Positions 593 to 59,973 of a stretch of 64,000 nt of DNA are shown one piece after another; the stretch's first letter is position 1; each line of letters begins with the position of its first letter. The translations under genes were made by a program, and so were the position numbers. Under the pieces are notes generated by a model that did no database searches, was not told the origin of the DNA, and saw only the letters and a program-made list of their open reading frames with translations. The stretch is from Hexactinellida sp. DTS-2022 (taxonomy: Eukaryota > Porifera > Hexactinellida). Where the stretch lies: positions 11,460,501 to 11,524,500 of the forward strand of contig JAPNXP010000001.1 of the NCBI GenBank assembly GCA_028753945.1. Direction: 5' to 3'.

Positions 593-1843
593 ATGGCTAG
601 TGCAAATGTGCCAGTAGAGAGTTCCTTCCTGTTAGAGGTGGAGAGAGCGCGAGCAGAGGTACGGGAGAGAGTAGCCAGAGCTCACCAGGTGCTGCGAGAG
701 AGAGAGACAGCACTGCTGTCAGAGCTGCAGCAGCTAGAGGATGTCTACAGGGGAGAGGGAGTAGACAGGCAAGTTGCTCAGCTGAGAACAACCAAGGAAC
801 ATGCTATTGCTACTCTCTCGGATAACAAGAACAAAGAGTTCCTTGCACAGCACGTAGCTCTACTGGACACCCAGATGAGAGAGCTAGCAGCTGATCTCGA
901 GACAGCCAGAGACAGGATGGGACGAGTGGAGCTGGAGTGGGATGGAGACCTGGAAGGAATACTGAGAGGGACAGGATCGATTCGAGTGAGAGCAGTACGG
1001 AGACTACGGGCATCACCTGACTACAGGGAGAAAGGAAATCCTGTGACGGTAGCTGGGAAACACAGAAAGGAGAAATCTACAACACCTGGAGAGTTCTGTT
1101 ATCCTAAGTCAATCGCTATAGACTCTGAAACGAATAATATTTATATTTGTGATGGAATGAATAACCGAGTACAAGTCTTTAACGAATCTCTAGAATTCCT
1201 ATTCGCTTTCAGTAAAGAGATGAATTATCCACATGGTATCTGTATCTATTTTAACAAAGTATATGTCACACAGATTGATGCTAGTTCTCTCACTGTATAC
1301 TCTATTGAAGGTAGATACATACAATCAGTTGGAAGAAAAGGCGATAAAGAACTGGAATTTATTTGGCCTAGAGGAGTTGCTGTATCAACAGTGAATAATC
1401 TAATTTACATTTGTGACTGTTTGAACAATCGGATTCATTGTCTGAATTTGAATTTAACTTTCAACTCATTCATTTCTAAAGTTAACTGTCCTAGAGATAT
1501 CAGGCTGACACCACAAGATATTGTAGTGCTGACAGAAGGGAGTCCATGTATCCAATTCTACGATTACTCACATCAGCTGATTAGACAGATAGTACCACGA
1601 GGAGAAGGTAATCAGCTGATTGATCCTTGGTACTTCTGTCTAGACAGGGAGTTCAATATTCTGATGACTGACTCATTAGCTCATAGAGTTCTGATATTCT
1701 CTAACAGAGGACAAATACTGCATCAGTTTGGGAAGAGAGGAGAGGGAAGAGGAGACCTTTTCGTTCCTGCTTGTATAGCTGTGGATAGAGAAGGTAGAAT
1801 TATAGTAGTGTCTCAGAATTCTAACTGTATTCAGTTATTCTAA
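593..1843 (+). CDS. Coiled-coil NHL-repeat protein, gene 1 (unit A)
   Basis: The product is a predicted 416-aa cytoplasmic protein from one exon. Residues about 5-130 are a charged heptad-type coiled coil. After a linker, residues about 150-416 form a six-blade NHL beta-propeller with repeated motifs such as SIAID, CDGMNNRVQVF and GVAV. There is no RING, B-box, signal peptide or membrane segment, so a TRIM-type ubiquitin ligase role is not supported; a binding or scaffold role is inferred. I start at the ATG at 593 (MASANV, G at -3 and +4); the in-frame codons just upstream lack an ATG. An out-of-frame ATG at 588 opens a nine-codon overlapping uORF. The linker carries about five extra residues relative to its paralogues. 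The downstream flank (1844-1929) is shared with genes 3, 4, 6 and 7. The partner is unknown. Confidence 0.9.
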   Translation: MASANVPVESSFLLEVERARAEVRERVARAHQVLRERETALLSELQQLEDVYRGEGVDRQVAQLRTTKEHAIATLSDNKNKEFLAQHVALLDTQMRELAADLETARDRMGRVELEWDGDLEGILRGTGSIRVRAVRRLRASPDYREKGNPVTVAGKHRKEKSTTPGEFCYPKSIAIDSETNNIYICDGMNNRVQVFNESLEFLFAFSKEMNYPHGICIYFNKVYVTQIDASSLTVYSIEGRYIQSVGRKGDKELEFIWPRGVAVSTVNNLIYICDCLNNRIHCLNLNLTFNSFISKVNCPRDIRLTPQDIVVLTEGSPCIQFYDYSHQLIRQIVPRGEGNQLIDPWYFCLDREFNILMTDSLAHRVLIFSNRGQILHQFGKRGEGRGDLFVPACIAVDREGRIIVVSQNSNCIQLF

Positions 1844-2037
1844 TTGTTAACTATTTATACGGACATTTTATTTGCCGATTCTTGACTATCCTAATTTTGA
1901 ACCAATTGTGTAATTATGTAACCTTATAGCAGGGTTCCGCTAACTTTCATTTATATTAGGCCACATAATCTTAACAAAATTTCCTCATGCCGCAAACAAT
2001 ATCGAGAAATTTTTAGAAATTTATAACAAAACTATTA

Positions 2038-2865
2038 CAGTAGATGTCGGATATAAGCATACCGGTTATAAGAACTGTAGTAAACTACTAAACTATGGGA
2101 CAACTGTAGCCTAGCCAACCAGAATGACTAGTGGGGTTTCGTACCATCTCAGGTACTCATCAGGAGGGTGACCCTCGACCCCGTGACTGGGTGGTCACGC
2201 TTCCTTATTGCCACACTCTACGAGTGTGCTCCTGCCGGCATACACCTAGCTCCACTAGGCGCCGGCCCCGATACTACAAGAACATATCGGATATAAGCAC
2301 ACTAAGTTGGAAAACGGTTGCCATATACCCTGTATAATTTATGTCGGTTATAAGAACATGCTGGATATAAGCACATTAAGTGGGCCCATACATGGGTTCA
2401 AGTCCGGACTGGAATGAAGATTTATATTTAAAATCCCAATCCCATTCTGAATGGGAATGGGACTTATGCCCTGAATTCCAGGATTTGAAAGACTGTGACT
2501 GGGAATTAAGTCCTATCCTAGGGAATGGGAATGGGACTTAAGTCCTGGAATCCCGAATTTGAAAGACTGATACTGGGAATTAAGTCCTATCCTAGGGAAT
2601 GGGACTTAAACCCTGAATTCCAGGATTTGAAAGACTGTGACTGGGAATTAAGTCCTATCCTAGGGAATGGGAATGGGACGCAAGTCCTGAATTGACGAAA
2701 ATGAAAGACTGCGACTGGGAATTAAATCAGGGAATCCCATTAAGATTGGGAATTCAGGGAATTAAATCGGAATTGAACCCATGTATGAATAAATAAATAA
2801 AAATAAATAAATAAATAAATAATAAGTGCAGTTCCCGACGATGTGCTTATAACCGGCATCCACTG
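2038..2865. mobile_element. TA-flanked composite element (Tigger/pogo-like) private to unit A
   Basis: Termini CAGTAGATGTCGG and CCGGCATCCACTG are flanked by TA (2036-2037, 2866-2867). Units B and C keep the empty site (ACTATTATCTTG). Short 126-bp relatives occur at 9493-9618 and 37160-37285. The interior includes a second nested inverted-repeat element (2387-2787) and a GC-richer stretch (2124-2275) that I do not recognise. Confidence 0.8.
2387..2787. repeat. Nested inverted-repeat element filled with a minisatellite
   Basis: Terminal repeats are CATACATGGGTTCAA and TTGAACCCATGTATG. The interior has about four copies of a roughly 70-80 bp unit built from GGGAATTAAGTCC, TATCCTAGGGAATGGGA and GATTTGAAAGACTG. 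It is followed by an AAAT-rich microsatellite (2788-2822). No coding potential. Confidence 0.7.
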
Positions 2866-6000: not shown

Positions 6001-6385
6001 AACAAGAGCAAAGATTCCAATTGATCTTTTAAGTAAACAAGTATGCTCGATAGTGCATACGAATTTAGTATCAACCAACTTATGAGTATAAGTTGCTGAC
6101 TTGCTGTTGTTAGTTAAGTCTGCGTTGTGGTTGAAAGATTGACAAATAGCGACTGAGACCAAGGGCTCGTTTTGACTGCTATATTGGATTAAGCACATGA
6201 GATATATTGCACTATGTACTCATAGTGCAGTATATAAGCTGTAGGGGCACAGGACCAATGCCGAGAGGACTCAGATGAAGTTTATTCAGGAAATAATGAA
6301 TAAGGAATTGAGAATAGTGAAAATGAAAGCAAATGAATGACTGTTTTTTGACCAGAATAAAGAAAAATAGCTCTACGTAGAAAAA
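3061..6385. other. Long spacer between NHL genes 1 and 2 (unit A)
   Basis: No convincing gene. 3061-3300 repeats the 3' flank of NHL gene 3 (13487-13740). About 3600-4720 is a block that recurs in partial form upstream of NHL gene 3 (10950-11790). 4720-6385 recurs at equivalent places in units B and C. Short open frames here are not kept intact between units. Confidence 0.65.
4132..4195. promoter_or_regulatory. Cluster of NRF1-like palindromes (unit A)
   Basis: Three TTAGCGCATG cores lie in about 60 bp: GCGCATGCG at 4132, a full GCGCATGCGC at 4164-4173, and a degenerate third copy at 4186. GCGCATGCGC is the core of the NRF1 palindrome. Whether anything binds it here is unknown. Confidence 0.4.
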
Positions 6386-7526
6386 GGGCTCTATGTACAA
6401 TAAAGGGCTCTATGTACAATACAGGGCTCTGTGTACAACAAAGTACTCCGGGTACAATTAAAAGCTGGGGGTTAGCTAAAAGGCTCTGTATATTCTAAAG
6501 GGCTCTATGTACAATAAAGGGCTCTATGTACAATAAAGGGCTCTATGTACAATATAGGGCTCTGTGTACAATAAAGGGCTCTGTGTACAATATAGGGCTC
6601 TGTGACAATAAAGGGCTCTGTGTACAATAATGGGCTCTGTGTACAACAAAGTACTCCAGGTACAATTAAAAGCTGGGGGTTAGCTAAAGGCTCTGTATAT
6701 TCTAAAGGGCTCTGTGTACAATATAGGACTCTATGTACAATAAAGGGCTCTGTGTACAATAAAGGGCTCTGTGTACAATAAAGGACTCTGTGTACAATAT
6801 AGGGCTCTGTGACAATAAAGGGCTCTGTGTACAATAATGGGCTCTGTGTACAACAAAGTACTCCAGGTACAATTAAAAGCTGGGGGTTAGCTAAAGGCTC
6901 TGTATATTCTAAAGGGCTCTGTGTACAATATAGGGCTCTATGTACAATATAGGGCTCTGTGACAATAAAGGACTGTGTGTACAATATAGGGCTCTGTGTA
7001 CAATATAGGGCTCTGTGTACAATAAAGGACTCTGTGTACAATAATGGGCTCTGTGTACAACAAAGTACTTCGGGTACAATTAAAAGCTGGGGGTTAGCTA
7101 AAAGCTCTATATATAATAAAGGGCTCTATGTACAATATAGGGCTCTGTGACAATAAAGGGCTCTGTGTACAATAATGGGCTCTGTGTACAACAAAGTACT
7201 CCAGGTACAATTAAAAGCTGGGGGTTAGCTAAAGGCTCTGTATATTCTAAAGGGCTCTGTGTACAATATAGGGCTCTATGTACAATATAGGGCTCTGTGA
7301 CAATAAAGGACTGTGTGTACAATATAGGGCTCTGTGTACAATATAGGGCTCTGTGTACAATAAAGGACTCTGTGTACAATAATGGGCTCTGTGTACAACA
7401 AAGTACTTCGGGTACAATTAAAAGCTGGGGGTTAGCTAAAAGCTCTTTATATAATAAAGGGCTCTATGTACAAAAAGGGCTCTGTGTACAAAAAAGGGCT
7501 CTGTGACCAAAAATGGGCTCTGTGAC
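6386..7526. repeat. 19-bp minisatellite with higher-order structure (unit A)
   Basis: The unit is GGGCTCTGTGTACAATAAA with G/A variants. About every 130-210 bp it is broken by a conserved 60-70 bp block containing AAAGCTGGGGGTTAGCT, giving a higher-order repeat (blocks near 6462, 6669, 6880, 7086, 7218, 7426). Long open frames here arise only because the 19-mer lacks stops in every frame of one strand. Confidence 0.92.
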
Positions 7527-7793: not shown

Positions 7794-9029
7794 TTAGAAT
7801 AACTGAATACAGTGTTTAGGATTCTGAGTCACTACTATAATTCTACCTTCTCTGTCCACAGCTATACCAGTAGGAGAGATAAGGTTTCCTCTTCCCTCTC
7901 CTCTCTTCCCAAACTTGTGCAGCAGTTGTCCTCCGTTAGAGAATATCAGAACTCTATGAGCTAATGAGTCAGTTATCAGAATATTGAAATATCTGTCTAG
8001 ACAGAAGTGCCAAGGATTAATCACCTGATTACCTTCTCCTCGTGTTACTATCTGTCTAATCAGCTGATGTGAGTAATCGTAGAAGTGGATACATGGATTC
8101 CCTTCTTTCAACACTACAATATCTTGTGGCGTCAGCTTGATATCTCTAGGATGGTTAAGTTTAGAAATGAATGAATTGAAAGTTAAACTCAAATTCAGAC
8201 AATGAATCCGATTGTTCCCCCAGTCACAAATGCAAATTAGATTATTCACTGTTGATACAGTAACTCCTCTAGGCCAAATAAATTCCAGTTCTTTACTGCC
8301 TTCTCCTCCAACTGATTGTATGTATCTACCTTCGATAGAGTATACAGTGAGAGAATGAGCACCTAACTGAGTGACGTAGACTTTCTTTAGATATATACAG
8401 ATACCATTTGGTGAGTTCATCTCTTCACTGAAAGTGAATAAGAATTTCAATAATTTGTTAAAGACTTGTACTCGGTTATTCCCTCCATCACAAATATAAA
8501 TATTATTTGTTTCAGAGTCTATAGCGATTGAATTAGGACAAAAGAACTCTCCAGGTGTTGTAGAGGTCTCCTTTCTGTGTTTCCCAGCTACCGTCACAGG
8601 ATTTCCTTTCTCCCTGTAGTCAGGTGCTCCTCTCACTCGAATCGATCCTGTCCCTCTCAGTATTCCTTCCAGGTCTCCATCCCACTCCAGCTCCACTCGT
8701 CCCATCCTGTCTCTGGCTGTCTCGAGATCAGCTGCTAGCTCTCTCATCTGGGTGTCCAGTAGAGCTACGTGTTGTGCAAGGAACTCTTTGTTCTTGTTAT
8801 CCGAGAGAGTAGCAATAGTCTGTTCCTTGGTTGTTCTCAGCTGAGCAACTTGCCTGTCTACTCCCTCTCCCCTGTAGACATCCTCTAGCTGCTGCAGCTC
8901 TGACAGCAGTGCTGTCTCTCTCTCTCGCAGCACCTGGTGAGCTCTGGCTACTCTCTCCCGTACCTCTGCTCGTGCTCTCTCCACCTCTAACAGGAAGGAA
9001 CTCTCTACTGGCACATTTGCACTAGCCAT
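7794..9029 (-). CDS. Coiled-coil NHL-repeat protein, gene 2 (unit A)
   Basis: The product is a predicted 411-aa single-exon protein with the same architecture as gene 1: coiled coil about 5-130, six-blade NHL propeller about 148-411. Start is the ATG at 9029 on the minus strand (AAGATGG context). Unlike the plus-strand copies it has no out-of-frame ATG just before the start. The propeller belongs to a distinct subtype: FCPN before the first blade, NSPN, CDWGNNR, KEGNP and INPWHF at the variable loops. It lies head to head with gene 3. The two share about 200 bp of upstream sequence, so the pair forms an inverted repeat with arms of about 1.4 kb around a 2.8-kb spacer. Its orthologous copy in unit B (35459-36694) is nearly identical. 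Binding partner unknown. Confidence 0.9.
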   Translation of the reverse strand: MASANVPVESSFLLEVERARAEVRERVARAHQVLRERETALLSELQQLEDVYRGEGVDRQVAQLRTTKEQTIATLSDNKNKEFLAQHVALLDTQMRELAADLETARDRMGRVELEWDGDLEGILRGTGSIRVRGAPDYREKGNPVTVAGKHRKETSTTPGEFFCPNSIAIDSETNNIYICDGGNNRVQVFNKLLKFLFTFSEEMNSPNGICIYLKKVYVTQLGAHSLTVYSIEGRYIQSVGGEGSKELEFIWPRGVTVSTVNNLICICDWGNNRIHCLNLSLTFNSFISKLNHPRDIKLTPQDIVVLKEGNPCIHFYDYSHQLIRQIVTRGEGNQVINPWHFCLDRYFNILITDSLAHRVLIFSNGGQLLHKFGKRGEGRGNLISPTGIAVDREGRIIVVTQNPKHCIQLF

Positions 9030-12169: not shown

Positions 12170-13404
12170 ATGGCTAGTGCAAATGTGCCAGTAGAGAGTT
12201 CCTTCCTGTTAGAGGTGGAGAGAGCGCGAGCAGAGGTACGGGAGAGAGTAGCCAGAGCTCACCAGGTGCTGCGAGAGAGAGAGACAGCACTGCTGTCAGA
12301 GCTGCAGCAGCTAGAGGATGTCTACAGGGGAGAGGGAGTAGACAGGCAAGTTGCTCAGCTGAGAACAACCAAGGAACAGACTATTGCTACTCTCTCGGAT
12401 AACAAGAACAAAGAGTTCCTTGAACAGCACGTAGCTCTACTGGACACCCAGATGAGAGAGCTAGCAGCTGATCTCGAGACAGCCAGAGACCGGATGGGAC
12501 GAGTGGAGCTGGAGTGGGATGGAGACCTGGAAGGAATTCTGAGAGGGACAGGATCGATTCGAGAAGAGGAGCACCTGACTACAGGGAGAAAGGAAATCCT
12601 GTGACGGTAGCTGGGAAACACAGAAAGGAGACCTCTACAACACCTGGAGAGTTCTATTATCCTCATTCAATCGCTATAGACTCTGAAACGAATAATATTT
12701 ATATTTGTGATGGAGGGAATCACCGAGTACAAGTCTTTAACGAATCTTTAGAATTCCTATTCACTTTCAGTGAAGAGATGAAGTTACCACGTGGTATCTG
12801 TATCTATCTTAAGAAAGTCTATGTCACACAGTTAGGTGCTCATTATCTCACTGTATACTCTACTGAAGGTAGATACATACAATCAGTTGGAAGAAGAGGC
12901 GATAAAGAACTGGAATTTATTGCTCCTTGCGGAGTTGCTGTATCAACAGTGAATAATCTGATTTACATTTGTGACCGTTTGAACGATCGGATTCATTGTC
13001 TTAATTTGAATTTAACTTTCAATTCATTCATTTCTAAAGTTAACCATCCTAGAGATATCAAGCTGACACCACAAGATATTGTAGTATTGACAGCTGGGAG
13101 TCCATATATCCAATTCTATGATTACTCACATCAGCTGATTAGACAGATAGTAACACGAGGAGAAGGTAATCAGGTGATTGATCCTTGTTGCTTCTGTCTA
13201 GACAGAGATTTCAATATTCTGATAACTGACTTATCAGCTGAAAGAGTTCTGATATTCTCTAACAGAGGACAACTGCTGCATAAGTTTGGGAAGACAGGAG
13301 AGGGAAGAGGAGACCTTATCTCTCCTGCTGGTATAGCTGTGGACAGAGAAGATAGAATTATAGTAGTGTCTCAGAATCCTAAACACTGTATTCAGTTATT
13401 CTAG
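12170..13404 (+). pseudogene. NHL gene 3 (unit A), frameshifted
   Basis: Sequence matches NHL gene 6 of unit B along its whole length. The linker between coiled coil and propeller (near 12563-12568) has lost one base: GAAGAGG here against GTGAGAGG in unit B. The coiled-coil frame therefore runs out at 12604, while the complete propeller stays open in another frame to 13404. Translation from the ATG at 12170 would give a coiled coil with a short foreign tail. Variable-loop signature: YYPH, KLPR, LGAHY, CDRLNDR, DPCCF, LSAE. The break falls exactly where gene 1 carries extra linker codons, so this linker is prone to indels. A sequencing error cannot be excluded. Confidence 0.8.
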
Positions 13405-14543: not shown

Positions 14544-16224
14544 ATGTTAGAAGATAATTTAGAAATTGGAACTATAATGAATGAAACCTTGTTAATCTCT
14601 TGGTCTATCATTTCACGTTATAAAGACCGTTTCAGAGAAATCAGTTCGTGTCTGTGGAGAAACCCTGAATTAGCTTGTGCAGAATTTTCAGCGCACAAAA
14701 TTTTAACTGAATTCTTAGCTCAAAATGAATTCAGTGTAACACCATCTTATTTATTACCAACAGCTTTTAAAGCAACTTTTCATACATCTAGTAACAATCA
14801 TAAAACAACAATAAATCCTTGTATTATCTGCGAATATGATGCTCTGCCCAAAATCGGACATGCATGTGGTCACAACTTAATAGCAGTCGCAGGAATAGCT
14901 GCCGCAATGATAATTAAAAGCAATATGGAGTTATTTCCTGATAGATTTCGCGATTGTACATTGACTGTTATAGGTACCCCTGCGGAAGAGGAGGGTGGTG
15001 GAAAAATTGATTTAATTAATTTGGGCGGTTTTCGAGATGTGGATTTCGCGATGATGGTACATCCTTATACTTGTAATATATTATATCCACCTATATTGAT
15101 GATGGGTTGTTATACAGTTAATTATTCTCAGCGTGGTGATACGGATGGGAATTGGAATGTTAATTTGGATGCAGCTGTAATGGCTTATAACAATATATCT
15201 ATGTTAAGACAACAAGTGTTACCAACTGCGAGGATTCATGGAATAATATTAACAGGTGTGCTTGAATAGATAATAAACAAATTGTTTAATTATATTATGA
15301 GAATAAAATATAGTAGATTGTCATGATCTTTTGAATAATGTTTTTGTTGCTCATTTTGAAAATATTTTTCTATTGATTTTTGAGCTTACTTATTAGTGGC
15401 TAACACCTTTTAAATATCAAACTCGGCTTCGTACAATTAATTTTGATATCAAAAAATGAAATTACCAATGTTTCAAAATTGCATTAGAAAAGGCGTTGGC
15501 CGATATATTTAAGTAATTCCATTATTTAATTTCGATTATTGACTTGTCTGTTTACATTAAAATATCATCTGTAAAATAGATTGAAGTTATTAGTAGGTTT
15601 TACCATTGAGTATTTCTTAATCAACAACTGATTTTATTATATTCGAAATTCCACACATTTGTATTATCTATAGGAGGCGACCTGTTGATAGAGTCTACAC
15701 CTGTGGAGATGGAGTGGGATATCCGTGCACAGTCAAGTGAAACATACCGCGATATCGAATTAAGATCGATCAAATCCTTCGAATCTTCTGCCACAGTTTT
15801 CAATTGTAAATGCGATATTCGCCAACGAACACCTACTCATTATAATATGCTAACTAATTCCAAACTCGCGGAAATATTTCGCGAAAAATCTTCAAAATTC
15901 GGAATTAAATTCGATTCTAAAGAAGATGATCAATTGAAAAGTTCTTTTTCAACTGACATGGGTAACGTATCATATATTTTGCCCAGCATTCATCCCAAAT
16001 ATTATATACCTACTCAGGGACCCAATCATACTACAGAATTTGCCGAGGCTAGCAACACTGATATCGCAATGGAATGTACTCTAGATGCAGCAAAGGCCTT
16101 AGCACTGACTGCAATAGAGGTTATGTTAAAACCGGGATTGTTTGAAGATGTATTGAAGGAATTCAACTTAACCAACAAAACACTTGTAAAACTATTTATT
16201 ATTAATGCTAATGAATTTGTATAA
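14544..16224 (+). CDS. PM20D2-like M20 metallo-dipeptidase, copy 1 (unit A)
   Basis: The product is a two-exon, about 420-aa cytosolic hydrolase of the M20/PM20D2 group (beta-alanyl-lysine and related dipeptide cleavage in vertebrates). Exon 1 is 14544-15255 and exon 2 is 15674-16224. The phase-1 intron has donor ACAG|GTGTGC and acceptor CTATAG|GAGG, joining ILTG to GDLLIEST. Visible motifs in order: NPELA (about residue 40), EYDALP (97), HACGHN (105), TPAEEEGGG (146), AHP-equivalent VHP (172), LDAAVMAYNN, STDMGNVSY, IHP and the C-terminal NHT (356). The metal-site residues are therefore present. Oddity: where relatives read GKASHAA this copy reads SQRGDTDG, so the dimer-interface histidine of M20 enzymes is missing and activity is uncertain. 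The human protein is about 436 aa, so the length fits. Confidence 0.85.
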
Positions 16225-23460: not shown

Positions 23461-23464
23461 AATA

Positions 23465-28103: not shown

Positions 28104-28168
28104 TATATCAAACAAGGAACGTTTTCTTTCAGTTGTCCAATTTTATTAGTGATGTACTTTAGAACACT

Positions 28169-29128: not shown

Positions 29129-29279
29129 TTAAACTAGTATTTTTCAGAATACCCTGTTTTATAACTTTTATTTATCTATTTGGCCAAGAGCTGTGGGTCT
29201 GTGACCTATTTTACATTAGTACGTTTCTAAAACCGTTCAGTTAACGACAGGTATTTAGGTAGCCCAACAAGTGCATGAG

Positions 29280-30521
29280 ATGGCTAGTGCAAATGTGCGA
29301 GTAGAGAGTTCCTTCCTGTTAGAGGTGGAGAGAGCGCGAGCAGAGGTACGGGAGAGAGTAGCCAGAGCTCACCAGGTGCTGCGAGAGAGAGAGACAGCAC
29401 TGCTGTCAGAGCTGCAGCGGCTAGAGGATGTCTACAGGGGAGAGGGAGTAGACAGGCAAGTTGCTCAGCTGAGAACAACCAAGGAACAGACTATTGCTAC
29501 TCTCTCGGATAACAAGAACAAAGAGTTCCTTGAACAGCACGTAGCTCTACTGGACACCCAGATGAGAGAGCTAGCAGCTGATCTCGAGACAGCCAGAGAC
29601 AGGATGGGACGAGTGGAGCTGGAGTGGGATGGAGACCTGGAAGGAATACTGAGAGGGACAGGATCGATTCGAGTGAGAGCAGCATCTGACTACAGGGAGA
29701 AAGGAAATCCTGTGACGGTAGCTGGGAAACACAGAAAGGAGCCCTCTACAACACCTGGAGAGTTCTGTTATCCCAAGTCAATCGCTATAGACTCTGCAAC
29801 GAATAATATTTATATTTGTGATGGAATGAATAACCGAGTACAAGTCTTTAACAAATCTCTAGAATTCCTATTCGCTTTCAGTGAAGAGATGAATTATCCA
29901 CATGGTATCTGTATCTATTTTAACAAAGTATATGTCACACAGATTGACGCTAGTTCTGTCACTGTATACTCTATCGAAGGTACATACATACAATCAGTTG
30001 GAAGAACAGGCTGTAAAGAACTGGAATTTATTTGGCCAAGAGGAGTTGCTGTATCAACAGTGAACGTGAATAATCTAATTTACATTTGTGACTGTTTGAA
30101 CAATAGGATTCATTGTCTGAATTTGAATTTAACTTTCAATTCGTTCATTTCTAAAGTTAATCTGCCTAGAGATATCAAGCTGACACCACAAGATATTGTA
30201 GTGTTGACAGAAGGAAGTCCATGTATCCAATTCTACGATTACTCACATCAGCTGATTAGACAGATAGTACCACGAGAAGAAGGTAATCAGGTGATTGATC
30301 CTTGTCACTTCTGTCTAGACAGAGAATTCAATATTCTGATGACTGACTCATCAGCAGATAGAGTTCTGATATTCTCTAACAGAGGACAACTGCTGCATAC
30401 ATTTGGGAAGAGAGGAGAGGGAAGAGGAGACCTTATCTCTCCTGCTGGTATAGCTGTGAGTAGAGAAGATAGAATTGTAGTAGTGTCTCAGAATCCTAAA
30501 CACTGTATTCAGTTTTTCTAA
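29280..30521 (+). CDS. Coiled-coil NHL-repeat protein, gene 4 (unit B)
   Basis: The positional copy of gene 1, 413 aa, intact. The coiled coil differs from gene 1 at only a handful of residues (for example NVRVES, LQRLED, FLEQH). The propeller differs at the loops: PCHF, SSADR, ISPAG, KVNLPRD. It carries a 6-bp duplication at about 30062 that adds two residues (VNVNNL) in the strand entering blade 3. Start at the ATG at 29280; as in gene 1, an out-of-frame ATG five bases upstream opens a nine-codon uORF. The upstream region has two insertions absent from units A and C (24207-28805 and 28891-29128), leaving about 150 bp of ancestral 5' flank next to the gene. Expression may therefore differ from gene 1. 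Confidence 0.9.
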   Translation: MASANVRVESSFLLEVERARAEVRERVARAHQVLRERETALLSELQRLEDVYRGEGVDRQVAQLRTTKEQTIATLSDNKNKEFLEQHVALLDTQMRELAADLETARDRMGRVELEWDGDLEGILRGTGSIRVRAASDYREKGNPVTVAGKHRKEPSTTPGEFCYPKSIAIDSATNNIYICDGMNNRVQVFNKSLEFLFAFSEEMNYPHGICIYFNKVYVTQIDASSVTVYSIEGTYIQSVGRTGCKELEFIWPRGVAVSTVNVNNLIYICDCLNNRIHCLNLNLTFNSFISKVNLPRDIKLTPQDIVVLTEGSPCIQFYDYSHQLIRQIVPREEGNQVIDPCHFCLDREFNILMTDSSADRVLIFSNRGQLLHTFGKRGEGRGDLISPAGIAVSREDRIVVVSQNPKHCIQFF

Positions 30522-30607: not shown

Positions 30608-30902
30608 CAGGGTTCCGCAACTTTCATTTATATCAGGCCACATAATCTTAACAAAATTTCCTCAGGCGCAAACAATATCGAGAAATTATTCGAAATTTAT
30701 AACAAAACTATTATCTTGTTGTAATACTAGAATTATACTAATTTCTAAGCAAAAAGTGCATAAAGGACTCTAGTCAAAAGGTAATACAGTTAGAAATGTC
30801 TCTCAGACCACACATGATACAAATTTCCATTGGGCTATCAGGCCACACATAAGGTTGCTTCAGGACGCATGCGGCCTGAAAAACCTAGTTTGCGGAACCC
30901 TG
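30608..30902. mobile_element. hAT-like MITE after NHL gene 4
   Basis: CAGGGTTCCGC to GCGGAACCCTG. Flanks CCTTATAC (30600-30607) and CCTTATAG (30903-30910). Uninterrupted version of 1930-3060. Confidence 0.82.
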
Positions 30903-35176: not shown

Positions 35177-35458
35177 TGACGTTTATCCGATTATTATCCG
35201 ATTACTATAATTCTCTTATATTCAACTTCCTCTGTAATTCCTCACTCAATTTCTGTTTGACTCAGATTTCCATTGATTTTTTTTTTCATTTTCGATTTAA
35301 TTTCCATTATAATATGCCTGTTGTCACAGAGCCCATTTTGACTAGGTTTCCTGCTCATATCTTGCTCTCATAATCGTAGATGTCCGCAACTTGCAAGCAT
35401 TAAGTTATCACAAATTTATCACAAATTTAATATATAATTAATGATAAACAATCAACAA

Positions 35459-36694
35459 TTAGAATAACTGAATACAATGTTTAGGATTCTGAGTCACTAC
35501 TATAATTCTATCTTCTCTGTCCACAGCTATACCAGTAGGAGAGATAAGGTTTCCTCTTTCCTCTCCTCTCTTCCCAAACTTATGCAGCAGTTGTCCTCTG
35601 TTAGAGAATATCAGAACTCTATGAGCTAATGAGTCAGTTATCAGAATATTGAAATATCTGTCTAGACAGAAGTGCCAAGGATTAATCACCTGATTACCTT
35701 CTCCTTGTGTTACTATCTGTCTAATCAGCTGATGTGAGTAATCATAGAAGTGGATACATGGATTCCCTTCTTTCAACACTACAATATCTTGTGGTGTCAG
35801 CTTGGTATCTATAGGATGGTTAAGTTTAGAAATGAATGAGTTGAAAGTTAAACTCAAATTCAGACAATGAATCCGATTGTTCCCCCAATCACAAATGCAA
35901 ATTAGATTATTCACTGTTGATACAGTAACTCCTCTAGGCCAAATAAATTCCAGTTCTTTACTGCCTCTTCTTCCAACTGATTGTATGTGTCTACCTTCGA
36001 TAGAGTATACAGTGAGAGAATGAGCACCTAACTGAGTGACATAGACTTTCTTTAGATATATACAGATACCATTTGGTGAGTTCATCTCTTCACTGAAAGC
36101 GAATAAGAATTTCAATAATTTGTTAAAGACTTGTACTCGGTTATTCCCTCCATCACAAATATAAATATTATTAGTTTCAGAGTCTATAGCGATTGAATTA
36201 GGACAAAAGAACTCTCCAGGTGTTGTAGAGGTCTCCTTTCTGTGTTTCCCAGCTACCGTTACAGGATTTCCTTTCTCCCTGTAGTCAGGTGCTGCTTTCA
36301 CTCGAATCGATCCTGTCCCTCTCAGTATTCCTTCCAGGTCTCCATCCCACTCCAGCTCCACTCGTCCCATCCTGTCTCTGGCTGTCTCGAGATCAGCTGC
36401 TAGCTCTCTCATCTGGGTGTCCAGTAGAGCTACGTGCTGTTCAAGGAACTCTTTGTTCTTGTTATCCGAGAGAGTAGCAATAGTCTGTTCCTTGGTTGTT
36501 CTCAGCTGAGCAACTTGCCTGTCTACTCCCTCTCCCCTGTAGACATCCTCTAGCTGCTGCAGCTCTGACAGCAGTGCTGTCTCTCTCTCTCGCAGCACCT
36601 GGTGAGCTCTGGCTACTCTCTCCCGTACCTCTGCTCGTGCTCTCTCCACCTCTAACAGGAAGGAACTCTCTACTGGCACATTTGCACTAGCCAT
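35459..36694 (-). CDS. Coiled-coil NHL-repeat protein, gene 5 (unit B)
   Basis: Positional copy of gene 2, 411 aa, intact. It has the same loop signature (FCPN, NSPN, CDWGNNR, KEGNP, INPWHF). A few changes separate the two: FLEQH against FLAQH in the coil, GRRGS against GGEGS, HPIDTK against HPRDIK, VTQGEG against VTRGEG. Start at the ATG at 36694 on the minus strand. It is divergently oriented to gene 6, but the spacer is now 6.5 kb because of the foldback insertion at 38650-42208. The first 200 bp upstream are still shared (inverted) with gene 6. Confidence 0.9.
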   Translation of the reverse strand: MASANVPVESSFLLEVERARAEVRERVARAHQVLRERETALLSELQQLEDVYRGEGVDRQVAQLRTTKEQTIATLSDNKNKEFLEQHVALLDTQMRELAADLETARDRMGRVELEWDGDLEGILRGTGSIRVKAAPDYREKGNPVTVAGKHRKETSTTPGEFFCPNSIAIDSETNNIYICDGGNNRVQVFNKLLKFLFAFSEEMNSPNGICIYLKKVYVTQLGAHSLTVYSIEGRHIQSVGRRGSKELEFIWPRGVTVSTVNNLICICDWGNNRIHCLNLSLTFNSFISKLNHPIDTKLTPQDIVVLKEGNPCIHFYDYSHQLIRQIVTQGEGNQVINPWHFCLDRYFNILITDSLAHRVLIFSNRGQLLHKFGKRGEERGNLISPTGIAVDREDRIIVVTQNPKHCIQLF

Positions 36695-38649: not shown

Positions 38650-39354
38650 TAGTTAGGGAATTTTAGCCCAAATTATAGGTCAACCTCGAAAAAAATTGTT
38701 ACCAAACAATTCTACACTAGCGTCTTCTTCTGTGTCCGAATAAACATAGAAAAAAAGTTGCAAGCCCAAAGCTGTGAGGAAAATTTTTTACACCCCTTCA
38801 AACCCGGGGACCAGGGGCCAAAAATCGCCGATATTTTTTACCTTTTTTTTCTTCATTAAAATCAATTTATATGGTGTATTTTGGAACAAGGAACTGTTTA
38901 GAACCACCCATTTTATGCTAGCATTAATAGAACCTCTCGAACTTTGAGCATTTACTCGAAAAATTCGAATATCTGAAATCTAATACTACAAAAGTCAGGC
39001 CCTATCAAATAAATTACTTGTTTAATATTCCCGCCCGTCCCAATTTTTACACTCCGTCCGGATTCATTTACTATTAACTTATGAACTTAATAGTGCAAAA
39101 TATTAGCTATTGACTGATGTTAAATATTCCTAATGTATCAATTTTAATAAGTCAAGAATTTTAGAGCATTACTTTTATATTTTGGGCATTGCCTTGTGTT
39201 TTTCTTATTAAATTAAATGAGAATATGTATTTTATTTGATATTGGATATGTTGTTTCATATTAATGGAATTAAAAAGAAAAAGAAAATCCCGTCCGCCGT
39301 CCTTATTTTCTAAAAAATCTGGATGATAAACAAGTAAATTTTTACATGTATTTA

Positions 39355-39475
39355 TGTTGCGGTGTGTACCCACACACCCTGTCATGTTAGTGTGTGCAGG
39401 TACACACTGCTGTATTACCGCACACAATCAGTGTATTAGTGTGTGCGGGCACACACTGGTACCTGCACACAATTA
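39355..39475. repeat. GTGTGTGC palindrome cluster in the left foldback arm
   Basis: Three near-palindromes about 50-60 bp apart: GTGTGTACCCACACAC, GTGTGTGCAGGTACACAC and GTGTGTGCGGGCACACAC. They recur inverted in the right arm (about 41400-41510). Confidence 0.6.
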
Positions 39476-39576
39476 ATGACTAGACTACATTGTATCAATA
39501 AACACTAAGGAGTTTGTGTAATTGCGAAAGAGATCGAATGCCGGCTGCTATCATCGTGTATTCGGTACATACAAAC

Positions 39577-42208: not shown

Positions 42209-43146
42209 TAATGTTTGATGCATTGTACAAAATTATCCTATTTTCTGTATTTTGAGATATTATTTTCCTCTTGCGTTTTCCAAAACTCATTGAAATACTC
42301 GCTGTCCAATACTTCAGTTCGAATGTGCTTTAAAATTCTTCCATTTCAACTTTTCGTAGATTTGCTCCCACCTCTTCCTCAATTGTTTCATATAATCTTT
42401 CATCATATTTTGCAACAATATAAGTATATAATGATTTGTGTAACTAAACTTTGTCCTTTTCCTTCTTAAACCCGTTTTGAAATCTAGCAAGTTTGATTCT
42501 TGAATTTCAACTGATGATATCATCCTCTGCTCTCTCTGCTCCAGATTGGAATTGTAGCCTCTTGCAAGACCTCAAATGTTTTTATTGGGGTTTGCATTTG
42601 ATTTCCTCCGCTTATCGCTCGTTTTTGATAAAAATTGTCGGCATTTTGTCATTATTGACAAACTTTTTCCTTTGGTTTTTCAAATTGATAATTTGTGTTT
42701 CTTAAAGGTGGTGTCTCTATCTATAGCAAAAAATTATTGGATTGAAATAATTTGTTATCTGGAGGTATTAAAAAGTATTATGCGCACGCGCATTAGAGCT
42801 CGAAACTGTATACCTAGTAGTATCATCAACTATCCCATTGTTTCGAACTGTCCTTCAATCCCTTCCATTAAGTTAATGGAACAATAGCTATCAAGAAGGG
42901 CATGTACCTTGTGATATAGGCCTAGAGAGAACCCTGGTGAGAGTGGGAGTAATATGCCAATGTTTCTATTGTAACACGACACCCATCTTACTGCTATGGA
43001 ATTGAAACTGTTTTTGGCTCATTTGAACAAATAGGCAATTTAATATTGAATTAATAAATTAAATATCCAAGAACATTATACGTACATTTCAAGGAATACC
43101 CTTTCAGCAATTTCACGACGTATCTAACGTATAAGAAGTGCATGAG
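42209..43146. other. Upstream region of NHL gene 6
   Basis: Equivalent to 11233-12169. It contains part of the dispersed 3600-4720 block and, from about 42960, the upstream region shared in inverse with gene 5. The same GCGCACGCGC-like motif occurs at 42782 and 11805. No gene. Confidence 0.55.
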
Positions 43147-44382
43147 ATGGCTAGTGCAAATGTGCCAGTAGAGAGTTCCTTCCTGTTAGAGGTGGAGAGA
43201 GCGCGAGCAGAGGTACGGGAGAGAGTAGCCAGAGCTCACCAGGTGCTGCGAGAGAGAGAGACAGCACTGCTGTCAGAGCTGCAGCAGCTAGAGGATGTCT
43301 ACAGGGGAGAGGGAGTAGACAGGCAAGTTGCTCAGCTGAGAACAACCAAGGAACAGACTATTGCTACTCTCTCGGATAACAAGAACAAAGAGTTCCTTGA
43401 ACAGCACGTAGCTCTACTGGACACCCAGATGAGAGAGCTAGCAGCTGATCTCGAGACAGCCAGAGACAGGATGGGACGAGTGGAGCTGGAGTGGGATGGA
43501 GAGCTGGAAGGAATACTGAGAGGGACAGGATCGATTCGAGTGAGAGGAGCACCTGACTACAGGGAGAAAGGAAATCCTGTGACGGTAGCTGGGAAACACA
43601 GAAAGGAGACCTCTACAACACCTGGAGAGTTCTATTATCCTCATTCAATCGCTATAGACTCTGAAACGAATAATATTTATATTTGTGATGGAGGGAATCA
43701 CCGAGTACAAGTCTTTAACGAATCTTTAGAATTCCTATTCGCTTTCAGTAAAGAGATGAAGTTACCACGTGGTATCTGTATCTATCTTAAGAAAGTCTAT
43801 GTCACACAGTTAGGTGCTCATTATCTCACTGTATACTCTACTGAAGGTAGATACATACAATCAGTTGGAAGAAGAGGCGATAAAGAACTGGAATTTATTG
43901 CTCCTTGCGGAGTTGCTGTATCAACAGTGAATAATCTGATTTACATTTGTGACCGTTTGAACGATCGGATTCATTGTCTTAATTTGAATTTAACTTTCAA
44001 TTCATTCATTTCTAAAGTTAACCATCCTAGAGATATCAAGCTGACACCACAAGATATTGTAGTATTGACAGCTGGGAGTCCATATATCCAATTCTATGAT
44101 TACTCACATCAGCTGATTAGACAGATAGTAACACGAGGAGAAGGTAATCAGGTGATTGATCCTTGTTGCTTCTGTCTAGACAGAGATTTCAATATTCTGA
44201 TAACTGACTTATCAGCTGAAAGAGTTCTGATATTCTCTAACAGAGGACAACTGCTGCATAAGTTTGGGAAGAGAGGAGAGGGAAGAGGAGACCTTATCTC
44301 TCCTGCTGGTATAGCTGTGGACAGAGAAGATAGAATTGTAGTAGTGTCTCAGAATCCTAAACACTGTATTCAGTTATTCTAG
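43147..44382 (+). CDS. Coiled-coil NHL-repeat protein, gene 6 (unit B)
   Basis: Intact counterpart of the broken gene 3, 411 aa. Coiled coil about 5-130, linker RVRGAPDYREK, NHL propeller about 148-411. Loop signature YYPH, CDGGNHR, KLPR, LGAHY, APC, CDRLNDR, TAGSPY, DPCCF, LSAE. Outside the linker indel the DNA differs from gene 3 at only scattered sites. Start at the ATG at 43147, again with an out-of-frame ATG five bases upstream. The central part of its propeller is the apparent donor type for gene 7. Neighbours: the foldback element upstream and the PM20D2 copy 4.1 kb downstream. Confidence 0.9.
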   Translation: MASANVPVESSFLLEVERARAEVRERVARAHQVLRERETALLSELQQLEDVYRGEGVDRQVAQLRTTKEQTIATLSDNKNKEFLEQHVALLDTQMRELAADLETARDRMGRVELEWDGELEGILRGTGSIRVRGAPDYREKGNPVTVAGKHRKETSTTPGEFYYPHSIAIDSETNNIYICDGGNHRVQVFNESLEFLFAFSKEMKLPRGICIYLKKVYVTQLGAHYLTVYSTEGRYIQSVGRRGDKELEFIAPCGVAVSTVNNLIYICDRLNDRIHCLNLNLTFNSFISKVNHPRDIKLTPQDIVVLTAGSPYIQFYDYSHQLIRQIVTRGEGNQVIDPCCFCLDRDFNILITDLSAERVLIFSNRGQLLHKFGKRGEGRGDLISPAGIAVDREDRIVVVSQNPKHCIQLF

Positions 44383-45476
44383 TTGTTAACTATTTATACG
44401 GACATTTTATTTGCCGATTCTTGACTACCCTAATTTTGAACCAATTGTGTAATTATGTAACCTTATAGCAGGGCTACTAGCGATAGGTGGGGCAGCATAC
44501 CAACGAAGAATTGGGCATTATTATCAGAATGCGCGTTATCAAATTATAATGACTATATTTTTTAAAAAGTAAATATGACCTTTATAAACGTGGGCCGATA
44601 TTTGCACAACCCTGCCTTATAGAATTCCAAATAGCCCGTATTGTATCTACCCAGTGTGGCTATTGGCACGCATTAATCTCAGCTGCAGACTCTAGCTTCT
44701 AGCTTGAGATAGGACCAGTCCTCTGCAGGTGATAAGCTACCATGCCTCAGGTGTCTATCTCTCTCTTGTGGCAGTAGACTCCGTGCCTTCATATGTCCAC
44801 CAGTCAGATCTGATGGGGACTGAATGCTCAGGGCTAGACGGAGAGTTAACTAAGGCATTGTATTAGGTCGAAATGTAGAGTAGCTATATATGGTGTTGGC
44901 TGAATCCCTGTCTTGATGAAACTGAGTGGGCCAATAAGAGCTCTTAAGGTTGATGCCTAAAACTATATACGTAGTTTGACTTGGCTTTAGTTATAATCGA
45001 CTTCTGCTTTATGATGCCTAGATGGTTTCTAACGTTGGAGTAGCACAATTTAGCCATGTATCCCAATAATTATGGACAATCATGAAATATTTAATACAAA
45101 AAGTCCGGTGTGGAAACAATGCCTGTTGCTATTCCGTATAGAGATGTTTAACTGTGCAGTTATTGGCCATCATTCCAACCCTACTTAATTTTATCAGCAA
45201 TTCGATACATTTTTTTCCGTTAGACAGTTATCTCGATTGTATCATTATTTACAAGTTGTTCGTTCGCGTTACGAGCGTTTTCACATCTTGCATTAGGACT
45301 TACCGACCTAACAAATACTCCTAACATATGTATATATATATATTGGAAATTATATGTGGTTAGATAGACGGTGTAATATTTAAATAAATGCTACTTATAT
45401 ATCGGAAATAAAACTAAAGTTTATTTTAAATGTTAAAAAACGATCTTGCAAGTGCTTAAAATTACATTAGAAAAAA
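44383..45476. other. Spacer after NHL gene 6
   Basis: Nearly identical to 13405-14489. Repeated NHL 3' flank, then unique AT-rich DNA. It ends where a 3-kb insertion begins. No gene seen. Confidence 0.55.
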
Positions 45477-48524: not shown

Positions 48525-50170
48525 ATGTTAGAAGATAATTTAGAAATTGGAACTATAATGAATGAAACCTTGTTAATCTCTTGCTCTATCATTTCACGTT
48601 ATAAAGACCGTTTCAGAGAAATCAGTTCGTGTCTGTGGAGAAACCCTGAATTAGCTTGTGCAGAATTTTCAGCGCACAAAATTTTAACTGAATTCTTAGC
48701 TCAAAATGAATTCAGTGTAACACCATCTTATTTATTACCAACAGCTTTTAAAGCAACTTTTCATACATCTAGTAACAATCATAAAACAACAATAAATCCT
48801 TGTATTATCTGCGAATATGATGCTCTGCCCAAAATCGGACATGCATGTGGTCACAACTTAATAGCAGTCGCAGGAATAGCTGCCGCAATGATAATTAAAA
48901 ACAATATGGAGTTATTTCCTGATAGATTTCGCGATTGTACATTGACTGTTATAGGTACCCCTGCGGAAGAGGAGGGTGGTGGAAAAATTGATTTAATTAA
49001 AATGGGCGGTTTTCGAGATGTGGATTTCGCGATGATGGTACATCCTTATACTTGTAATATATTATATCCACCTATATTGATGATGGGTTGTTATACAGTT
49101 AATTATTCTCAGCGTGGTGATACGGATGGGAATTGGAATGTTAATTTGGATGCAGCTGTAATGGCTTATAACAATATATCTATGTTAAGACAACAAGTGT
49201 TACCAACTGCGAGGATTCATGGAATAATATTAACAGGTGTGCTTGAATAGATAATAAACAAATTGTTTAATTATATTATGAGAATAAAATATAGTAGATT
49301 TTCATGATCTTTATGAATAATGTTTTTGTTGCTCATTTTGAAAATATTTTTCTATTGATTTTTGGGCTTACTTATTAGTGGCTAACCCTTTTAAATATTT
49401 AACCCGGCTTCGTACAATTAATTTTGATATCAAAAAATGAAATTACCAATGTCTCAAAATTGCATTAGAAAAGGCGTTGGCCGATATATTTAAGTAATTT
49501 CCAATATTTAATAGCGATTATTTACGTTGTCTGTTTACATTAAAATATCATCTGTAAAATAGATTGAAGTTATTAGTAGGTTTTACCATTGAGTATTTCT
49601 TAATCAACAACTGATTTTATTATATTCGAAATCCACACATTTGTATTATCTATAGGAGGCGACCTGTTGATAGAGTCTACACCTGTGGAGATGGAGTGGG
49701 ATATCCGTGCACAGTCAAGTGAAACTTACCGCGATATCGAATTAAGATCGATTAAATCCTTCGAATCTTCTGCCACAGTTTTCAATTGTAAATGCGATAT
49801 TCGCCAACGAACACCTACTCATTATAATATGCTAACTAATTCCAAACTCGCGGAAATATTTCGCGAAAAATCTTCAAAATTCGGAATTAAATTCGATTCT
49901 AAAGAAGATGATCAATTGAAAAGTTCTTTTTCAACTGACATGGGTAACGTATCATATATTTTGCCCAGCATTCATCCCAAATATTATATACCTACTCAGG
50001 GACCCAATCATACTACAGAATTTGCCGTGGCTAGCAACACTGATATCGCAATGGAATGTACTCTAGATGCAGCAAAGGCCTTAGCACTGACTGCAATAGA
50101 GGTTATGTTAAAACCGGGATTGTTTGAAGATGTATTGAAGGAATTCAACTTAACAACAAAACACTTGTAA
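48525..50170 (+). CDS. PM20D2-like M20 metallo-dipeptidase, copy 2 (unit B)
   Basis: Exon 1 is 48525-49236 and exon 2 is 49656-50170, with the same donor and acceptor as copy 1. The predicted protein is about 408 aa. All M20 motifs listed for copy 1 are kept (EYDALP, HACGHN, TPAEEEGGG, VHP, STDMGNVSY, NHT). The SHA-type motif is absent here too, reading SQRGDTDG, so the loss predates the duplication. One base is missing near 50152 (TTAACAACAAA against TTAACCAACAAA), which changes the last codons and ends the protein about 12 residues early, after the conserved fold. Differences such as KMGGF against NLGGF are few. A 3-kb repeat now begins about 50 bp upstream of the start, so the ancestral upstream DNA is displaced and expression may be altered. 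Confidence 0.82.
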
Positions 50171-58079: not shown

Positions 58080-58086
58080 AATTATA

Positions 58087-58257
58087 CAGTGAACTCTCGT
58101 TCGTTATAACGAAGTGCTTGGGACCTGTAAATTCCTTCGTTATATCCGTATTTTTATTATAAGCTGATGATAATAATGCATTTCTGGGGGGAAATATATA
58201 ATTCGTTATAAGCAGTCATTTCGTTATATCTTACTTCGTCATAACGGGAATTCACTG
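58087..58257. mobile_element. TA-flanked MITE (Tigger/pogo-like), copy 3 (unit C)
   Basis: Same as 44-218 with small internal deletions. Confidence 0.75.
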
Positions 58258-58740
58258 TATATTCAATAGCTCTCGTTAATATGAATTTAACTTTTGTAAT
58301 ACCTACATTGCTACATCATAAATTAATACATATGACTGTTGGTTACCACCTCTACATGAAGAGCGCCAATGATATGTTATCCTAATGACAACTTAACAAA
58401 TTCTGACAAATGACAATTAGATGTTTCAGTCTGTTTGCTTCCCTTGCAAGGTTCTCAATAGGGCGGCATGGTTCAAGGGTATCCCAGCTGGCTATAATTT
58501 TTGGGATCATTTTAGGATATTTAACAAATCCAGAGGGTGGCCCAATAAGGTTTCCAAAATACGTTTTGAGGACCACCTTAAAATTTAATCTGATTCTTTT
58601 TTAACTAGTATTTTTCAGATTACCCTGTTTTATTTATCTATTTGGCCAAGAGCTGTGGGTCTGTGACCTATTTTACATTAGTACGTTTATAAACCGTTCA
58701 GTTAACGACAGGTATTTAGGTAGCCCAACAAGTGCATGAG
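58258..58740. other. Upstream region of NHL gene 7
   Basis: Carries the empty TTAA (58393-58396) and the dispersed block (about 58412-58590) that is only partly present upstream of genes 1 and 4. No gene. Confidence 0.55.
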
Positions 58741-59973
58741 ATGGCTAGTGCAAATGTGCGAGTAGAGAGTTCCTTCCTGTTAGAGGTGGAGAGAGCACGA
58801 GCAGAGGTACGGGAGAGAGTAGCCAGAGCTCACCAGGTGCTGCGAGAGAGAGAGACAGCACTGCTGTCAGAGCTGCAGCAGCTAGAGGATGTCTACAGGG
58901 GAGAGGGAGTAGACAGGCAAGTTGCTCAGCTGAGAGCAACCAAGGAACAGACTATTGCTACTCTCTCGGATAACAAGAACAAAGAGTTCCTTGCACAGCA
59001 CGTAGCTCTACTGGACACCCAGATGAGAGAGCTAGCAGCTGATCTCGAGACAGCCAGAGACAGGATGGGACGAGTGGAGCTGGAGTGGGATGGAGACCTG
59101 GAAGGAATACTGAGAGGGACAGGATCGATTCGAGTGAGAAGAGCACCTGACTACAGGGAGAAAGGAAATCCTGTGACGGTAGCTGGGAATCACAGAGAGG
59201 AGCCATCTACAACACCTGGAGAGTTCTGTTATCCTAAGTCAATCGCTATAGACTCTGATACGAATAATATTTATATTTGTGATGGAGAGAACAACCGAGT
59301 ACAAGTCTTTAGCGAATCTTTAGAATTCTCATTCGCTTTCAGTGAAGAGATGAATTTCCCAGTTGGTATCTGTATCTATCTTAGGAAAGTCTATGTCACT
59401 CAGTTTCTTGGTAGTTCTCTCACTGTATACTCTATCGAAGGTAGATACATACAATCAGTTGGAAGAAGAGGCGATAAAGAACTGGAATTTATTGCTCCTT
59501 GCGGAGTTGCTGTATCAACAGTGAATAATCTGATTTACATTTGTGACCGTTTGAACGATCGGATTCATTGTCTGAATTTGAATTTAACTTTCAATTCATT
59601 CATTTCTAAAGTTACCTATCCTAGAGATATCAAGCTGACACCACAAGATATTGTAGTGTTGACAGTTGGAAGTCCATATATCCAATTCTATGATTACTCA
59701 CATCAGCTGATTAGACAGATAGTAACACAAGATGGTAATCAGGTGATTGATCCTTGGCACTTCTGTCTAGACAGAGAATTCAATATTCTGATGACTGACT
59801 ACTCAGCTGATAGAGTTCTGATATTCTCCAACAGAGGACAACTGCTGCATAAGTTTGGGAAGAGAGGAGAGGGAAGAGGAGACCTTATCTCTCCTGCTGG
59901 TATAGCTGTGGATAGAGAAGATAGAATTGTAGTAGTGTCTCAGAATCCTAAACACTGTATTCAGTTTTTCTAA
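58741..59973 (+). CDS. Coiled-coil NHL-repeat protein, gene 7 (unit C), mosaic propeller
   Basis: Positional copy of genes 1 and 4, 410 aa, intact. Coiled coil about 5-130. The propeller begins with the gene-1 type signature (CYPK) and ends with the gene-4 type (DREFNILMTD, CIQFF). The middle, about 59461-59700, carries the gene-3/6 type residues (RRGDKELEF, IAPCG, CDRLNDR, GSPYIQF), and the DNA there is almost identical to gene 6. Private loop changes: CDGENNR, NFPV, QFLGSS, VTYPRD, VTQDGN (two residues shorter) and YSADR. Start at the ATG at 58741 with the same overlapping out-of-frame ATG as genes 1 and 4. The mosaic pattern suggests gene conversion between propeller types. Confidence 0.9.
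   Translation: MASANVRVESSFLLEVERARAEVRERVARAHQVLRERETALLSELQQLEDVYRGEGVDRQVAQLRATKEQTIATLSDNKNKEFLAQHVALLDTQMRELAADLETARDRMGRVELEWDGDLEGILRGTGSIRVRRAPDYREKGNPVTVAGNHREEPSTTPGEFCYPKSIAIDSDTNNIYICDGENNRVQVFSESLEFSFAFSEEMNFPVGICIYLRKVYVTQFLGSSLTVYSIEGRYIQSVGRRGDKELEFIAPCGVAVSTVNNLIYICDRLNDRIHCLNLNLTFNSFISKVTYPRDIKLTPQDIVVLTVGSPYIQFYDYSHQLIRQIVTQDGNQVIDPWHFCLDREFNILMTDYSADRVLIFSNRGQLLHKFGKRGEGRGDLISPAGIAVDREDRIVVVSQNPKHCIQFF

Follow-up and report, generated by a model that had tools for sequence, protein, structure and literature searches.

Among described gene families, the teleost finTRIMs come closest to the system reported here: they are clustered, have nearly identical N-terminal parts and are under positive selection in the binding domain, at sites congruent with those of TRIM5alpha, and 84 are reported in zebrafish (PMC2657112; here and below, statements on the literature refer to titles, openings of abstracts and some passages of open-licence papers). 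Rapid tandem TRIM expansions, possibly linked to external aggressions, are described in a paper on TRIM evolution (PMC3503706). In sponge transcriptomes, families of NHL-repeat proteins are very abundant, with far fewer in bilaterians (PMC3538665, 2012); the passage reporting this is silent on gene architecture, on hypervariability of a face and on selection. A nine-member NHL/B-box cluster appears in a domain-prediction paper (PMC3386278), and a figure legend in a Halichondria immune-repertoire paper names NHL among receptor-model domains (PMC8242945). The abundance of NHL proteins in sponges is thus already in print; an NHL repertoire with a hypervariable face was not described in the titles, openings of abstracts and passages covered. 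We analyzed a 64,000-nucleotide stretch of contig JAPNXP010000001.1 of Hexactinellida sp. DTS-2022 (assembly GCA_028753945.1, positions 11,460,501 to 11,524,500; hereafter the window), which carries an array of genes encoding NHL propeller proteins, together with relatives of these genes elsewhere in the genome. Variation within the family is concentrated on one face of the propeller, with a ratio of nonsynonymous to synonymous substitution rates (dN/dS) above 1 repeated in six clusters.

As in the TRIM-NHL proteins (TRIM71/LIN41, TRIM2/3, Thin, Brat and Mei-P26), a six-bladed NHL propeller stands behind a helical region, and the top-face loop positions studied here correspond to RNA-binding positions of LIN41. 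Unlike in those proteins, no RING or B-box was detected in the open reading frames (ORFs), the genes exist as hundreds of single-exon copies, and the LIN41 RNA-binding positions are hypervariable. The family resembles the finTRIMs, the closest logic in print that we encountered, in being large and clustered and in having positive selection focused on the recognition surface of a C-terminal binding domain (ligand binding here being suggested by LIN41); it differs in having NHL rather than B30.2, in the absence of a detected RING or B-box, and in size, at least 258 genes versus 84. Lamprey variable lymphocyte receptors (VLRs), which are secreted or membrane-bound, likewise hold variable residues at set positions on one face of a fixed repeat scaffold, but they are assembled somatically, whereas the variation here is among germline paralogues. 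We think it probable that the sponge family is a germline-encoded, probably intracellular repertoire of soluble recognition proteins that follows the finTRIM logic with an NHL face.

Variation on the top face of the propeller

The gene sample comprised 76 full-length genes, to which 12 more of a further cluster were added. Selection was tested in cluster A (17 genes, six of them in the window) and in five clusters outside the window, B (14), C (16 of 18), D (7), E (10) and F (12). The divergent cluster C genes L062 and L065 and partial or disrupted copies were excluded from these tests, and ten single genes (X) were used for alignment and structure only. A C-terminal six-bladed NHL propeller was identified by domain profile, by an AlphaFold2 model of gene 5 and by structure comparison. 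The closest solved relatives of the propeller include RNA-binding NHL domains; TRIM71, TRIM2/3, Thin, Brat and Mei-P26 were among the matches listed, and the N-terminal helices were barely covered. When a blade consists of four antiparallel strands, its D-A and B-C loops are on one face and its A-B and C-D loops on the opposite one, a layout with which the strands of the model agree.

Two sets of positions were evaluated. The 52 loop residues named in an earlier note on the window were set in advance and used unchanged. A second set of 30 contact positions, five in each of the six blades (P-2, P-1 and P+1 of the xxPxG loop; D+1 and D+2 of the DxxNxR loop), was derived independently of these genes from the RNA contacts of LIN41 and transferred by hand on the basis of the motifs (PMC5908797). 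The passages covered of that structural report describe 14 residues as RNA-contacting; 13 of these were recovered letter for letter at the five motif positions when compared with the LIN41 chain sequence, and the fourteenth, Arg707, was placed at P+1 through the motif spacing.

Codon maximum likelihood with dS free in each partition gave contact dN/dS values of 2.28 (p = 2e-4), 2.25 (1e-4), 1.60 (0.01), 3.14 (2e-4), 2.45 (0.002) and 9.87 (8e-11) in clusters A to F, respectively. The corresponding values were 0.56, 0.52, 0.33, 0.36, 0.52 and 0.15 for the loops of the bottom face and 0.74, 0.46, 0.31, 0.54, 0.26 and 0.42 for the rest. When each blade was given its own tree, dN/dS at contacts was 2.66, 1.74, 1.58, 3.23, 2.26 and 11.66 (all p ≤ 0.02). 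Among 37 independent nearest pairs, the ratio of the proportions of nonsynonymous and synonymous differences (pN/pS) was 1.33 at contacts (p = 0.0007; 1.16-2.05 by cluster), 0.42 in bottom loops and 0.41 elsewhere. When the 30-position set was shifted along the propeller, none of the 261 shifts reached the observed diversity in any of the six clusters, and per-site diversity in the propeller was correlated between clusters (Spearman 0.31-0.54), less so in the N-terminus (0.03-0.38).

Individual sites were evaluated with our own FUBAR-like grid (posterior for dN > dS above 0.9). The 30 positions contained 17 of the 38 selected sites in cluster A, 6 of 10 in B, 7 of 8 in C, 6 of 8 in D, 11 of 11 in E and 21 of 34 in F. 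The earlier note had proposed that propeller differences recur at equivalent loop positions, and its 52 residues indeed contain 19 of the 38 sites in cluster A (odds ratio 5.9, p = 3.5e-6) and the majority in the outside clusters B (7/10), C (7/8), D (5/8) and E (11/11). Its statement that strand residues hardly change is approximately true: paralogues differ in amino acid at 52-64% of contacts, at 9-19% of flanking positions and at 5-21% of positions more than two codons away. It had further placed the diversified residues on the ligand-binding face. This agrees with a dN/dS above 1 at the 30 LIN41-equivalent positions and of 0.15-0.56 in the opposite loops, the face being a putative binding face by analogy with LIN41.

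Alternative readings of the variable face

At the 30 positions, Asn (12.6%), Ser (10.4%), Tyr (10.0%), Gly (9.3%) and Arg (8.4%) are common, and Trp makes up 3.9% versus a rounded 0.0% at the remaining propeller positions, a residue use for which antibody loops offer a comparison. The net charge of these positions has cluster means of 0.1 to 2.1 and a range of -4 to +6, and the 30-residue signature is distinct within its cluster in 74 of 76 genes. By these features the face looks more like a binding site for diverse protein-like surfaces than like a single conserved RNA-phosphate cleft, and residue use and charge make a protein or a structured nucleic acid of varied shape a more likely ligand than one fixed RNA. 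The proteins could nevertheless be sequence- or shape-specific RNA binders of the LIN41/Brat kind, diversified to regulate or silence the sponge's own mRNAs, transposons or viral RNAs, with each face tuned to its RNA. Such a role would account for the coincidence of the variable positions with LIN41 RNA contacts and for the presence of RNA-binding NHL domains among the closest solved relatives, and rapid evolution of the LIN41-type RNA-binding surface has been proposed by Kumari et al. (PMC5908797); the low mean charge, however, is unlike the basic RNA cavity described for LIN41 in the same report, and we consider this role unlikely, though deserving of attention.

Several observations weigh against selection for recognition as the source of the pattern. 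The codon methods were our own implementation and not HyPhy or PAML. The 52-residue set had a dN/dS significantly above 1 in A, B and F and not in C, D and E, so the expectation of the earlier note that dN/dS would exceed 1 on one face held for the 30 positions in all six clusters and for its own residues in three. The pooled-pair ratio of Nei and Gojobori (NG86) for the 52 residues fell below 1 in B (0.93), C (0.80) and E (0.59); this set includes hardly varying residues (Pro, Asp, Asn, Arg), and it is at the 30 positions that the signal is clear. Cluster C gave the weakest contact signal (1.60, p = 0.01). Fitted dS was higher at contacts than in the rest in A (1.46/0.57), B (1.23/0.98), C (1.49/1.27), D (1.13/0.84) and E (2.08/1.13), but not in F (0.48/0.73), and contact pS, calculated by path averaging, was above that of other propeller codons in all six clusters. 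More than one nucleotide had changed in 238 of the 522 changed contact codons of nearest pairs (46%) versus 41 of 318 (13%) in the bottom loops. Conversion between copies and multi-nucleotide changes can inflate dN/dS; the bottom loops, evaluated on the same trees, are without inflation. Genes 2 and 4, which are duplicates within the window, differ at 1 of 30 contact residues and 9 of 232 other propeller residues, so change after duplication is not immediate. Finally, the ORFs yielded neither a RING or B-box nor any other effector domain.

Part of this evidence could be explained by mutation aimed at the loops, with local hypermutation or short-tract conversion generating the variation. The multi-nucleotide changes and the raised contact pS and fitted dS are in line with this, as are the AGY serine codons, which account for 43% at contacts and 15-23% elsewhere in the propeller (yet 49% in the N-terminus), and the raised synonymous divergence of flanking codons in cluster E (p = 0.01), although taken together the flanks show no such rise (p = 0.32). 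Where both codons of a pair specify the same residue, so that no mutational path need be assumed, there is no consistent synonymous excess: differences per site at contacts and more than two codons away were 0.124/0.081 in A, 0.162/0.191 in B, 0.293/0.287 in C, 0.178/0.173 in D, 0.240/0.186 in E and 0.028/0.070 in F. Because this measure is not consistently raised while amino acids differ so often at contacts, selection on residues is favored; dN was also above local dS in six of six clusters. Selection accounts for the pattern better than local hypermutation, and we regard mutational targeting as improbable, rated slightly higher than it would otherwise have been because dS at contacts is raised in five of six clusters and pS in all six.

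The top-face loops of a redundant, fast-turnover family might also be merely free to vary, since loops in general tolerate change and the very many copies include some with stops, truncations or frameshifts, but relaxed constraint is very improbable given a contact dN/dS significantly above 1 in every cluster and bottom-face loops under evident constraint. Self/non-self or allorecognition through allelic matching, raised in the earlier note and in keeping with a large family of high between-copy diversity, is barely credible, because the diversity here is among paralogues of one genome and a crude hydropathy scan (no dedicated predictor) detected no membrane-like stretch within residues 1-135 of 88 genes, the highest 19-residue mean being 1.03.

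The gene family, its N-terminal handle and the duplicated array

At least 258 distinct stop-free, near-full-length NHL relatives are present in the 112.4-Mb genome, on 17 of its 18 contigs. This is a lower bound, as only the best 99-101 of 1165-1239 first-look candidates were scored in each search. Near-full-length matches without internal stops made up 80 of 101, 84 of 104 and 78 of 102 entries in three non-overlapping lists, and a fourth list of 100, from which 35 close relatives and apparently new entries were taken into the count, added 16. The genes are found in arrays (e.g., C1:13.67-13.80 Mb) as well as scattered. The expanding propeller family that the earlier note had proposed from the window is therefore both borne out and extended, the window array being one of many. 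Outside the window, at C1:15.02-15.07 Mb, are relatives of the N-terminal part (58-80% identical), mostly in longer open frames of up to 605 residues; these were not among the matches listed in the full-length search and may bear a different or more distant C-terminal part. In a search with a silicatein-like query, identity reached 54% at best.

In the model of gene 5 the N-terminal part is predicted to form helices at residues 9-53, 57-75 and 81-108, and its Pfam and PDB profile matches are weak and mixed. Neither a RING nor a B-box was found in the six window NHL ORFs or in 28 N-terminal parts, although such domains might lie on a separate upstream exon; genome-wide there are 20 B-box matches at E ≤ 0.001. 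The earlier note described the first 130 residues as differing at only a few sites, which is correct for cluster A (pN 0.011), but pS is equally low there (0.014, versus 0.098 in the propeller). N-terminal and propeller pS are 0.117/0.212 in B, 0.222/0.302 in C, 0.044/0.167 in D and 0.060/0.085 in F. Cluster E is reversed (0.612/0.247), its N-terminus being the more divergent part. In nearest pairs, N-terminal pN/pS is 0.39-0.54 in B-F, from which constraint is evident in those clusters, and 1.07 in A. Of the "fixed coiled-coil handle" proposed from the window, the helices are thus predicted; selective fixation is not supported in cluster A because synonymous divergence is as low as amino-acid divergence. 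The low handle variation there points mostly to recent spread, with too little time for change, or to homogenization.

Gene 6 shares 99.2% identity with gene 5 in blade 3, versus 88-98% in the remaining blades, which indicates exchange of a single blade between copies. The nearest neighbor often changes from blade to blade, a count made without a null and hence only suggestive. Gene conversion within the propeller was rejected as the main driver, as few pairs lay beyond the null of a GENECONV-like permutation (A 1/136, B 1/91, C 2/120, D 1/21, E 0/45, F 0/66).

Of the NHL loci in the window, six are intact single-exon genes, one is frameshifted and one is partial (Table 1), and the reading frame of gene 1 and its twelve loop segments are correctly numbered in the earlier note. 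Self-comparison shows a tandem segmental duplication over 445-63564, the unit being ∼29 kb and the matching blocks roughly 91-99% identical: 445-2037 matches 29129-30713 and 58599-60165, 29166-34133 matches 58628-63564 (94.6%), and 11232-14491 matches 42209-45474 (99.2%). Their positions identify genes 1, 3 and 6 as copies of a single gene, genes 2 and 4 as copies of a second, and gene 5 as the counterpart of the frameshifted copy. Between genes 3 and 6, 13 of 30 contact residues differ, compared with only 20 of 231 in the rest of the propeller. Single-exon copies whose distant flanks cannot be aligned raised the possibility of retroposition: beyond ∼100 bp from the ORF most pairs are unalignable, and at -300 to -101 only 0.00-0.04 of pairs in clusters A-E exceed 0.7 identity. 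The mode of spread is not settled as retroposition because the window shows long segmental duplication that includes flanks; copies have spread either by duplication with ORF-limited conversion or by retroposition.

Table 1. NHL loci of the window and parts of gene 1 (window positions; res, residues of gene 1).
Feature	Position	Strand	Remarks
NHL gene 1 (A_w1)	593..1843	+	ATG 593, stop 1843; single-exon ORF, 416 aa
NHL gene 2 (A_w2)	7794..9029	-	intact, single-exon, 411 aa
Frameshifted NHL copy	12170..13404	+	N-terminal part 12170-12565 and propeller part 12529-13404 in differing frames
NHL gene 3 (A_w3)	29280..30521	+	intact, single-exon, 413 aa
NHL gene 4 (A_w4)	35459..36694	-	intact, single-exon, 411 aa
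NHL gene 5 (A_w5)	43147..44382	+	intact, single-exon, 411 aa; protein modelled with AlphaFold2
NHL gene 6 (A_w6)	58741..59973	+	intact, single-exon, 410 aa
3' end of further NHL gene	63799..64000	-	runs past window (C1:11524299-11525531)
Gene 1 helical, coiled-coil-like N-terminal part	593..982	+	res 1-130; almost no divergence in cluster A
Gene 1 six-bladed NHL propeller	1010..1840	+	
Gene 1 blade 1 D-A loop	1097..1108	+	res 169-172; hypervariable
Gene 1 blade 1 B-C loop	1151..1168	+	res 187-192
Gene 1 blade 2 D-A loop	1223..1234	+	res 211-214
Gene 1 blade 2 B-C loop	1274..1285	+	res 228-231
Gene 1 blade 3 D-A loop	1364..1372	+	res 258-260
Gene 1 blade 3 B-C loop	1415..1432	+	res 275-280
Gene 1 blade 4 D-A loop	1484..1495	+	res 298-301
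Gene 1 blade 4 B-C loop	1532..1549	+	res 314-319
Gene 1 blade 5 D-A loop	1622..1633	+	res 344-347
Gene 1 blade 5 B-C loop	1673..1684	+	res 361-364
Gene 1 blade 6 D-A loop	1760..1774	+	res 390-394
Gene 1 blade 6 B-C loop	1814..1825	+	res 408-411

Other features accompany the genes in the window. Two copies of an M20-peptidase-like ORF (14544-15269 and 48525-49250; Pfam match below the curated cut-off) lie within the duplicated block. A 793-aa ORF at 25734-28115 on the minus strand has a match to a Mutator-like transposase family (1.9e-51) and, at its end, a weak one to the PHD finger. A minisatellite at 6383-7524 is built on a 19-bp unit, with higher-order periodicities of 207 and 338 bp; a 178-aa ORF (6505-7041) is located within it, and the array is duplicated at 34229-35178. 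A 0.9-kb inverted pair (38682-39576 and 41292-42186) is 99.6% identical.

A possible recognition repertoire

Under the recognition reading, the helical N-terminal region would probably be an oligomerizing coiled coil that carries the propeller, and the top-face ring of D-A and B-C loop residues may, as in LIN41, bind the target. Diversifying selection has altered the 30 face residues faster than silent sites, with the scaffold and the opposite face constrained. New copies arise by segmental tandem duplication, as seen in the window, and the handle and sometimes single blades appear to be homogenized between copies, probably through gene conversion. The selecting agent would most likely be an opponent that itself changes, for example viruses, microbes or mobile elements, and the family may work as an innate repertoire like the finTRIMs or TRIM5alpha, with the NHL face replacing B30.2. 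We infer an intracellular location, ligand binding by the face and a defense role, the immune function because of the selection pattern. A bolder proposal, which we advance only tentatively, is that this is an undescribed germline immune repertoire of hundreds of intracellular single-exon NHL binders, in which a common handle and about five variable residues per blade on a radial face, with blades and handles exchanged, allow one scaffold to yield very many specificities.

If the family is a recognition repertoire, its scaffold would be comparable in logic to B30.2 in the finTRIMs or to the leucine-rich repeats of VLRs, and it may explain why sponge transcriptomes hold so many NHL repeats. The face also provides a testable map, in which ∼30 named residues per protein should set the binding of each paralogue, and the family offers hundreds of natural variants on an already studied propeller scaffold that are usable for binding screens.

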